A stretch of DNA of 50,783 nt from Lentisphaeria bacterium (lineage in GTDB: Bacteria; Verrucomicrobiota; Lentisphaeria; Victivallales; Victivallaceae), in assembly GCA_017466125.1 (NCBI GenBank), contig JAFTUS010000080.1:1-50783 (forward strand), written 5' to 3'. The translations under genes were made by a program, and so were the position numbers. How positions within the stretch are numbered: the first letter of the stretch is position 1; the number at the start of each line of letters is the position of its first letter. Under the pieces are notes generated by a model. It saw only the letters and a program-made list of their open reading frames with translations, did not search any database and was not told the DNA's origin. Of the stretch, positions 15,232 through 17,933 are shown piece after piece.

Positions 15232-15846
15232 TCAATCCAGTTCCCTGAGTTTCTGCCGGAACTCTTCAAGATCGGCACAGTTGAGAAAAACATTCTGCTT
15301 TTTTTCTTCTCCCAGCGTGCGGCACGGAACGTCGCCGTAGTCGTGGCCGGAGTAGATCATAAGCGTATCCGCCAATGGCAGGATCTTGCGGTTCAGTGAC
15401 GCAAACATCTCTTTGGAGCGGCAGAACCCGATACAGCCGATGAAAAGGACGTCTCCCGTAAAAAGGGCGGAGTCGTCACTCAAGCGGAAACAGACGGAAT
15501 CCCTGCTGTGACCGGGGGTGAAAAGAACTTCGATAAAACCGTCACCGAAGGGCAGTTTTTCGCCGTCGCGCAGCCGTTTCTGACCGGATTCCGGATGGTT
15601 GGGGTGGGCGATGATCTGTGCCGGAAAATCTGCGATGATCTCACCCAAAGCCTGCGAGTGGTCCAAATGTCCGTGGGTCAGCAGAATGTATTTGAGCGTA
15701 CAAACGCCGCACTCCGCCAGAGCCTTGCGGATGATCTCCGCATCTCCGGTGGGGTCCACCAGAGCGGCATCGCCGGAACCTGTGACAAGATATGAAAAAT
15801 TGCTGTCAAAACCGCCGACAGCAAGTTGTTTTACAATAAAAGACAT
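15232..15846 (-). CDS. MBL-fold hydrolase (glyoxalase II-like)
   Basis: A 204-residue zinc hydrolase with the signature THGHLDH (H58, H60, D62, H63) and the later metal ligands in FTPGHS and IYSGHDYG. Its length matches short GloB-type thioesterases that act on glutathione thiolesters or similar metabolites. It is cytosolic. The ATG at 15846 has GGAG 6 bp upstream. It is the first gene of the operon running to 8307, with a promoter at 15874-15902. Its link to the envelope genes that follow is unknown. Confidence 0.85.
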   Translation of the reverse strand: MSFIVKQLAVGGFDSNFSYLVTGSGDAALVDPTGDAEIIRKALAECGVCTLKYILLTHGHLDHSQALGEIIADFPAQIIAHPNHPESGQKRLRDGEKLPFGDGFIEVLFTPGHSRDSVCFRLSDDSALFTGDVLFIGCIGFCRSKEMFASLNRKILPLADTLMIYSGHDYGDVPCRTLGEEKKQNVFLNCADLEEFRQKLRELD

Positions 15847-15902: not shown

Positions 15903-16045
15903 TAAAAAAGCGCAGATATGCCACGATTTTTTACGGTAATCCCCCAAAAGCAGATGATGGCGGGTAGTGACGGCGACGTTGCTGCATCCTCCTTCGCCAA
16001 AGGCTTCGGAGGACAAGCCAGAGGGGGCGGGGCGCACCCAAAAAC

Positions 16046-16157
16046 AGATGATGGCGTGGGTACCTGTCGGCAGTACGGGGGACTTTGGCTGCGGCTGGCG
16101 AATAAGCCCTATAAGCCCTATAAGCCCTATAAGCCAAGAGCCTCTTGGTGCGGCGAG
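16046..16157 (+). repeat. Repeat cassette 1: left module, (ATAAGCCCT)x3.8, right module
   Basis: The left module is 16046-16100 and the tandem array 16102-16135 (three full ATAAGCCCT units plus seven bases). The right module is 16135-16157, ending in GGTGCGGCGAG. The left module agrees with that of cassette 2 at 31 of its first 34 and all of its last 18 bases. The right modules agree at 20 of 23. The array unit is wholly different from that of cassette 2. Confidence 0.75.
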
Positions 16158-16185
16158 CAGAGGGGCTTGGTGTCGGCTTTTGGCG

Positions 16186-16321
16186 CAGATTACGGCGTGG
16201 GCACCTGTCGGCAGTACGGTTGCCTTTGGCTGCGGCTGGCGGAGAGGATGGACAGGATGGACAAAATGGACACAATGGACACAATGGACACAATGGACAA
16301 AGAGACCCTTGGTGCGGCGAG
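16186..16321 (+). repeat. Repeat cassette 2: left module, six 9-bp ATGGACANN units, right module
   Basis: The left module is 16186-16241 and the array 16248-16301: ATGGACAGG, ATGGACAAA, three ATGGACACA, ATGGACAAA. The right module is 16299-16321. It has the same order and orientation as cassette 1, immediately after it (28 bp apart). The ATGGAC units also occur in reverse at 16373-16409; 16257-16272 and 16391-16406 are a perfect 16-bp inverted pair. Confidence 0.75.
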
Positions 16322-16478
16322 AAACGTTGACCGGCAATACAGAAGCCTCATCTTGCCACACCAGTCACCCCCGTCCATAAAGTCCATCATTGTCCATTTT
16401 GTCCATCTTTTCGCTGTCGCAGCCAAACGCCCCCAAACAACCTCCCCGCTGATCGACCAAGGCGCCGCCGCACGTCTC

Positions 16479-17933
16479 TTATTCAAAAACGTTTAATTCA
16501 AATGGCGCAGCGGGGATGCCTCGCTGATTGCTCAGGTTGTGAATGGCGATGCAGTCGTATGCGAAGCGGATCTTTACCGGTTCGGGTACGGCTTTGCACT
16601 CTATTGTAAGCGTGTCCCCCTTGATCGTTCCCGATGCCGGATGGAATATCCCGTCTGCTCCGGCTGCCTCCAGATGTGAAACGGGTTTTCCGTCAATGGT
16701 TTTCAGCGGTTGAGCATTGAAAAATTTCACCACTACCGTTTTCCCCCGGCGTTTTGCTGTCTTTGCCATGGGCGTCAGAACATCTGCGTTTCCGAGCCCG
16801 TATTCCCGGTAAAGGACGAGGTCGGCAAGCCGCAGGGCGAGCGGTTCTTTGCTCATGGGGTGGACGGATTTCACATCTCCGCAGTCGGTGGTGGAAATAA
16901 GGTCACTGTGCGGATCGCTCTGATCCCATTTCTGCTGAGCCATCCAGATTTGCGGAACTTTATCATTGGGGCTGTCGTTATTGTACTCCCACGGCGGGAT
17001 CATGACTGAATAGATCGGTAGTTTGGGGTTGCGGAACCCCCTGCGCATGGTATAGGTAAAGGCTTTGAGTTTGGGGAGATAGGTAATTCCGTCACGGTAA
17101 TTTTCCTCCCCCTGATACCAGAGGATACCGCGGATGTTGAAGGGCAGAATGGGCGTTATCATACCGTTGTAGATCGCCAGCGGATAACGCTGTTTTTCCC
17201 TCATTAGTTCTTCATCTTTTTTCGTCAGAAAGTTTTTGCAGGAGTTTCTGAAATTACGGCGGACTGCCACTGGCATATTTTTGATTTTGTCGAAGGAGTC
17301 CGGGGCGCAGAAAGCCTCAATGCGCCCGCCGCCGACAGCAATGCTGATCAAACCGACGGGAATTCCTGTTTTCTGAAGGATCGTCAGACCGGTGATGAAG
17401 CCGACCGCACTGAACTGCTGTGCGTTTTTCATATTTGATACGCGCCACGTTGCCGGCGGAGTTTTGGGGTTGTTCGGTTTGTGGTAGAACTGCGGTTTCC
17501 GGTTCCAGGCGTAACGGATATCGAAGACCCGGAGATTGGGTTGATCGATTTGGGAGAGGTATTTTTTCTTTTCCGTAATGCCGTCGATATACCACTGCAT
17601 GTTGGACTGTCCGGCGCAGAGCCAGACATCGCCGACCAGAATATTTTTGAGTTCCTTGCTGAACCGGCCGCATTGGACAACCATTTCCGCCGCTTCTGCG
17701 GATGCTTGAAATGCGGGAAGTTTTACAAGAAAATTCCCTTTTTTATTCACGATGCCTTCGGCTTTTTGGTTTTTGAAAGTTACGGTCACTTTATCACCGG
17801 GGTTGCCTTTGCCCCAGATACGGATCTCCTGATCGCGCTGAATGACCATATTATCGCTGAATACTCCCGGCAGCTGCAGTGCGTGCAGAAGTCCGGTTGT
17901 CATTACCAGAAATAAAATACTGCTGAATTTCAT
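16479..17933 (-). CDS. Exported sialate O-acetylesterase-like SGNH hydrolase
   Basis: A 484-residue protein with a signal peptide (to about LLHA, residue 18). The SGNH catalytic serine is S110 in CAGQSNMQW, the block typical of SASA-family 9-O-acetylesterases, and SVHPMSKEPLALRLA near residue 360 supplies the Asp/His of block V. The N-terminal 95 residues form a beta-sandwich seen in this family (DNMVIQRDQEIRIWGKG). It would remove O-acetyl groups from sialic acids so that sialidases can act. GAGG lies 6 bp before the ATG, and the gene starts 8 bp after the GH50-like gene; it is last in the five-gene glycan operon. Confidence 0.85.
   Translation of the reverse strand: MKFSSILFLVMTTGLLHALQLPGVFSDNMVIQRDQEIRIWGKGNPGDKVTVTFKNQKAEGIVNKKGNFLVKLPAFQASAEAAEMVVQCGRFSKELKNILVGDVWLCAGQSNMQWYIDGITEKKKYLSQIDQPNLRVFDIRYAWNRKPQFYHKPNNPKTPPATWRVSNMKNAQQFSAVGFITGLTILQKTGIPVGLISIAVGGGRIEAFCAPDSFDKIKNMPVAVRRNFRNSCKNFLTKKDEELMREKQRYPLAIYNGMITPILPFNIRGILWYQGEENYRDGITYLPKLKAFTYTMRRGFRNPKLPIYSVMIPPWEYNNDSPNDKVPQIWMAQQKWDQSDPHSDLISTTDCGDVKSVHPMSKEPLALRLADLVLYREYGLGNADVLTPMAKTAKRRGKTVVVKFFNAQPLKTIDGKPVSHLEAAGADGIFHPASGTIKGDTLTIECKAVPEPVKIRFAYDCIAIHNLSNQRGIPAAPFELNVFE

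Follow-up and report, generated by a model that had tools for sequence, protein, structure and literature searches.

Unrelated 9-bp tandem arrays within a common frame in a palindromic, intergenic mosaic repeat of a Lentisphaeria bacterium

Two adjoining copies of an intergenic repeat were found in a 50,783-nucleotide stretch of a Lentisphaeria genome (referred to as the window), in which a conserved frame encloses a tandem array of 9-bp units and the units of the two copies are unrelated. The repeat belongs to a multi-copy family in which a few array words recur, the variants of the left frame combine freely with these words, and a palindrome is formed around the cassette that carries the class B word; it was absent from the congeners examined. 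We consider it probable that the element is a mosaic repeat of the BIME/NIME type, in which dispersed copies trade the contents of the array slot through ectopic recombination and slippage changes the number of units.

The two cassettes lie 141 bp apart, and the frame recurs with this 141-bp step. The left frame of copy 1 (16046-16100, + strand) is of variant v1, with GGGACTTT ahead of GGCTGCGGC, and that of copy 2 (16187-16241, + strand) is of variant v2, with TTGCCTTT ahead of GGCTGCGGC; the two are identical at 49 of 55 positions, as counted on the sequence. The right frames (16136-16157 and 16300-16321, both + strand) contain the same core, CTTGGTGCGGCGAG, at 16144-16157 and 16308-16321. 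Between the left and right frames, Tandem Repeats Finder detected 3.8 copies of ATAAGCCCT with a 100% match at 16102-16135 (array A, + strand, four ATAAGCC words with CT spacers) and 5.8 copies of ATGGACANN with a 93% match at 16248-16299 (array B, + strand, six ATGGACA words with 2-nt spacers), and it found no other arrays in the 50.8-kb window. These results bear out the preliminary description of this DNA, which had reported a set of modules occurring twice in the same order with unrelated array units. The linker between the cassettes (16158-16186, + strand) consists of a tail starting with CAGAGG followed by TTGGCGC, and it is also repeated in the genome.

Further modules lie on both sides of the cassettes, among them a palindrome and a complementary arm that the preliminary description had missed. 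Upstream are a truncated REP-like, GTAG-tagged palindrome (GGTAGTGACGGCGACGTTGCTGC, 15963-15985, + strand), of which 10 copies occur among the loci of this genome, and a repeated module (CTTCGCCAAAGGCTTCGGAGGACAAGCC, 15992-16019, + strand) that precedes other cassettes as well. Downstream, the second cassette was found to be the left arm of a long palindrome, which starts at about 16224, inside left frame copy 2, and ends at about 16427. Its center (16322-16363, + strand) has a tail of the AAACGT type and ends in the right-frame complement CTTGCCACACCAG, and the complementary arm (16364-16427) contains four reversed ATGGAC words (16373-16407, - strand) and is closed by the left-frame complement GCTGTCGCAGCCAAA (16413-16427, - strand). 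The predicted RNA fold of 16222-16432 had an energy of -104.7 kcal/mol (z = -10). By contrast, a separate hairpin of the A cassette was considered and rejected (z = +1.2), and this cassette by itself is not palindromic.

The element occupies the gap between two genes that both lie on the - strand, one encoding a hydrolase of the metallo-beta-lactamase fold on the left (Pfam Lactamase_B, 15232-15846, with the start ATG placed at 15846 by our own reading) and the other encoding a SASA-type carbohydrate esterase on the right (16479-17933). The open reading frames over the arrays had no Pfam match, and a coding role for the arrays was rejected on this basis; the locus lies between genes. Other copies seem to sit among tandem, convergent and divergent genes, as judged from a partly confirmed reading of the open reading frames. 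No intrinsic terminator was found on the element, there was no Rfam match to the locus, and promoter-like matches on the + strand, which are matches to the consensus only, fall on the array itself. CsrA-type GGA sites are an unlikely candidate, since GGA is missing from class A and the words that contain it are located in stems. For the most part the element is probably passive DNA, acting at most through hairpins between genes.

Searches of the genome with either cassette returned about 30 matches, with E-values down to 2e-42 outside the locus, indicating that the likeness of the cassettes is not due to chance. For the left core TTGGCTGCGRCNGRCGRA there were 27 mismatch-free matches, and for the right core CYTTGGTGCGGCRAG about 40 when one mismatch was permitted; the reversed-pattern controls, counted with the largest number of mismatches allowed, gave totals of 10 and 2. 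The assembly is fragmented (224 contigs, 3.83 Mb, estimated contamination of 5.97%), and many copies are located at contig ends, as is the case for repeats that break assemblies. The order of adjoining cassettes was read from this assembly, with many copies ending contigs, and short-repeat assembly could have produced some chimeric joins between copies. At least 26 frames were complete, and these formed the base for counting the content of the slot.

Word A (ATAAGCCCT) was found in 15 of the 26 complete frames, word C (TCGGACANG) in 8 and word B (ATGGACANN) in 3. A fourth word, AACGGACNN, accompanied the right module, with a different left flank, at L092 and L094. The number of units per array ranged from two to six, with A arrays mostly containing four words (11 of 15), C arrays mostly four or five (one array has three) and B arrays four, five or six. 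Class A arrays were confined to frames, save for two non-canonical matches. Three variants of the left frame were distinguished, and eight of the nine possible combinations of variant and word were observed, the missing one being v1 with B: words A, B and C were present in 5, 0 and 2 frames of variant v1, in 3, 2 and 5 frames of v2, and in 7, 1 and 1 frames of v3. The left variant was not associated with the word (p = 0.21, permutation over 26 frames), a lack of association that is weak evidence at n = 26 with only three B frames, and the G/A site in GGCTGCGRC gave p = 0.29 against the word. The right tail was linked to the word (p = 0.0002), with B always followed by AAACGT and A mostly by CAGAGG. 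The free combination of left variants and words suggests that arrays and left frames have been reshuffled, and the link between tail and word suggests that array and tail often travel jointly, which would place the left boundary of the exchange within the left frame.

The preliminary description had proposed that arrays are replaced within a fixed frame, and it had recognized that modules occurring nowhere else, or the same unit at other loci with simple mutation as the source of the difference, would refute this. The genome-wide search for the modules, in which the units between them were collected, gave neither refutation and supports replacement, as the modules are widespread and the three words recur across left variants that are not linked to the word. 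An alternative is that the cassettes arose by plain duplication and that the word then changed in place by concerted mutation, without exchange. Words B and C have GGACA and the junction sequences in common, so interconversion between these two is possible, but word A contains neither and nonetheless recurs in 15 frames, which represent each of the three left variants. The repeated origin of the same word in the same frame is unlikely, and we regard this alternative as highly improbable. The fixed flanks around variable content would also suit a diversity-generating retroelement or an array of integron cassettes, but both are scarcely credible. The locus is non-coding, a few recurring words (three in the frames) take the place of open-ended variants, and the differences involve whole words and are not limited to adenines. 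Array and tail tend to travel together, as expected of gene conversion between repeats, the cassettes of about 141 bp, units included, carry no recognizable gene, and no reverse transcriptase was found among the window genes examined. The corresponding suggestions of the preliminary description, a diversity-generating system and a cassette in the integron sense, are therefore not supported.

Our best reading is that ectopic gene conversion combined with slippage is the simplest mechanism. The element would be built from dispersed modules, namely the GTAG palindrome, the frame, the array and the complementary arm, and the conserved frames on either side of the array would act as homology arms. 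Ectopic gene conversion, either between distant loci or between adjoining copies, would bring an array into another frame, the transferred array would often take part of its right tail along, and slippage within the array would alter the number of units. Through array exchange and slippage, a few words would circulate among the frames, and adjoining cassettes could thus hold unrelated words. Homologous recombination is the likely route of the exchange, and a site-specific enzyme may be an alternative one. The exchange of words is deduced from the combinations within a single genome, and it covers the circulation of the words, not the first entry of word A into the frame.

The palindromes in other parts of the genome contained states that exchange predicts. 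On contig C26 an A word lies opposite a B arm, on C141 and C162 a C word lies opposite a B arm, and on C178 the left array has been lost and the frame and the right arm have been kept. As a rule, the same word is found in both arms of a palindrome, yet their spacers differ; in none of the three genomes tested did the arm-to-arm spacer match exceed chance. Copying of one arm onto the other was therefore rejected as the cause of the equal words, and the arms were not simply copied onto each other. Diverged hairpins contained mostly B-like words (L198, L199 and L200), and two others contained mixed (L201) and C-like (L203) words. These diverged hairpins are probably older, and word B appears to be the oldest word.

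The REP-like GTAG palindrome GGTAGTGACGGCGACGTTGCTGCCGTCACC, with the constant loop GACGTTGCTGC, was observed in the window (15963-15985) and at L039, L043, L045-L048, L057 and L092. The copy at L092 has a compensated stem (GTGGCGC...GCGCCAC). Elsewhere the palindrome ends in CCGTCACC, which closes the stem, and the 3' half is swapped for another module in several copies, including the window copy, which runs into another module instead. At about positions 690-1010 of L094, a module of about 117 bp (AAAAATCCTCCCTTTTTCTGGGAGG...GGCGGCAGCAACGTCGCCGCCC) occurs three times in tandem and contains the GACGTTGCTGC core.

The element resembles bacterial interspersed mosaic elements and REPs (BIME/REP sequences) in being intergenic, palindromic, species-specific and clustered and in forming a mosaic of modules that include a GTAG-tagged palindrome (PMC2817692, PMC3733652), and the imperfect-palindrome mosaic typical of these sequences is present, with a z of -10 for the palindrome and with the modules arranged as mosaics at more than 25 loci. 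It could be a mobile element of the REP/RAYT type, whose palindromes are copied and built into mosaics by a Y1 transposase. The GTAG-tagged palindrome adjoins the cassettes, the genome contains one Y1 transposase gene above the Pfam cut-off, and palindromic, intergenic and species-specific repeats are also what BIMEs are (PMC2817692). However, descriptions of RAYT genes place their own REPs on either side of them, in inverted orientation, and the 2.2-kb locus of the single Y1 gene contains neither frame modules nor copies of the GTAG palindrome, nor any other module. The tag typical of BIME/REP elements (GTAG or CGTC) is present in the neighboring module but absent from the array-bearing frame, and the copies have no common ends. 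Mobilization of this type is accordingly improbable. REPs also differ in being palindromes of 20-40 bp without an internal tandem array, whereas the frame here holds an exchanged 9-bp array. The Y1 gene, the only one in the genome by Pfam, is located at C152:355-681 (L134), and a GAATGGCACCATTTATTT-like sequence unrelated to the frame is found nearby three times.

Exchange by ectopic recombination has a parallel in the neisserial intergenic mosaic elements (NIMEs), arrays between genes in which the short repeat dRS3 alternates with varying RS repeats and in which the conserved repeats are proposed to recombine with one another (PMC3898611). The likeness lies in a conserved short repeat combined with varying repeat sequences between genes (PMC3898611), but dRS3 is a 20-bp inverted repeat, ATTCCC(N8)GGGAAT, with RS repeats of 30-160 bp, whereas the words described here are 9-bp tandem units of unrelated sequence, and dRS3 was absent from the frame sequences read. 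The element lacks defining features of both BIMEs and NIMEs and is therefore assigned to neither, though it appears to work alike. The STAR elements of staphylococci are also interspersed, intergenic direct repeats with spacers whose loci expand and contract, but the sequence of a STAR locus is reported to be stable and locus-specific, whereas the same words occur here at many loci (PMC3532100). The TAACTGA repeats of Beggiatoaceae likewise form many short intergenic tandem arrays of two to six copies of one word, but they consist of a single 7-bp word, lie mostly just upstream of start codons and are described without a frame or palindrome (PMC4679880). No description of the present element was found in the open-licence literature searched.

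We examined related genomes for the frame. The frame modules were absent from all 8 congeners and all 32 other relatives examined, and one of the relatives searched (G016) matched only through ATGGACA-like stretches. Exact-pattern matches in named genomes (13) and viral contigs (2), sets that may omit the records of this genome, were scattered singles in unrelated organisms; they were rejected as copies because they are few enough to be due to chance. The burst of frame copies looks specific to this species. No usable empty site was found through the hydrolase orthologue in the 8 congeners, where a ROK kinase gene lies ahead of it. The ROK kinase gene of the present genome is located on another contig (C12:40631-41587, L195), with no cassette adjoining. 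Since the SASA esterase gene adjoins the element and the ROK kinase gene is on another contig, the gene order has broken at or near this intergenic region.

The format of the array was found more widely. When GGAC was required four times with a period of 9 bp and the other five bases of each unit were left free, 55 of 137 genomes of the order matched, and a part of these is background, since the control also scored in other genomes. Many matches with empty controls were obtained in G062 (24 + 21), G051 (14 + 20) and G046 (14 + 14). In G062, a distant genome of another family, the frame CGCGATT[G/T] ... GCGCG is unrelated to the one described here and encloses AC-GGAC words in 13 arrays and TC-GGAC words in 4 arrays with both frame sides; GT-GGAC words were found in one array with the right side only. 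One G062 locus (L147) carries AC words in one arm and GT words in the other, and other G062 elements hold still other 9-bp units in the right slot, such as CTCCGTTTT in L233. Four units were the mode in both G062 (22 of 29 arrays) and G051 (20 of 23 arrays), counts in which only the scarcity of longer arrays is unbiased, the loci having been fetched for containing at least four units.

In G051, the two bases before GGAC, which were free in the search, were 97-100% identical within arrays, and the three spacer bases were no more alike within arrays than by chance (0.24 versus 0.32). Spacers were alike within arrays in the present genome (0.69 versus 0.38 by chance, p = 0.001) and in G084 (0.56 versus 0.28 by chance, p = 0.001), which fits recent slippage. 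The ATGGACNNN arrays of G051 (L155-L164 and L238-L244) have exact words and unrelated spacers, even less alike than chance. They often form short inverted pairs whose loop measures about 10 nt, and the first spacer base was never C in 65 units. At L157, L159 and L163 of G051, GGAC arrays are adjoined by other stretches with a 9-bp period, for example CTTCGTGCTCTTCGTGCCCTTCGTGG, indicating that the 9-bp format extends to words other than those with GGAC.

These observations also bear on a functional reading of the slot, in which the arrays would be binding sites for proteins or RNAs that make about four contacts at 9-nt intervals, different factors would read different words, and selection would hold the words while the spacers drift and recombination may still move them. 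In the present genome, G062 and G051, unrelated words agree in their 9-bp period and in forming arrays of about four units, the bases before GGAC in G051 are nearly constant next to spacers no more alike than by chance, and the arms usually carry the same word despite their unmatched spacers. On the other hand, the spacers of the present genome are alike within arrays, as slippage alone would give, an array can vanish while the frame stays (C178), and the loci were fetched by a pattern that demands GGAC four times. We regard this reading as unlikely, and exchange by ectopic recombination with slippage is preferred.

A frame with an exchangeable 9-bp array may be a general, undescribed habit of this bacterial order. 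A tentative extension is an order-wide class of palindromes with a 9-bp slot of about four units in each arm, in which the frame would be genome-specific, the word would be interchangeable between loci and arms, and the word but not the spacer would be constrained, as though each word were recognized by a different factor and all of these factors had a 9-nt step in common. Most intergenic repeat families described consist of one sequence per family, whereas here the frame is fixed and its content is exchanged, and a member of another family of the order follows this rule with sequences unrelated to these. This raises the question of why the 9-bp format of about four units persists while the word changes, and the family constitutes a natural system for measuring gene conversion among short dispersed repeats.
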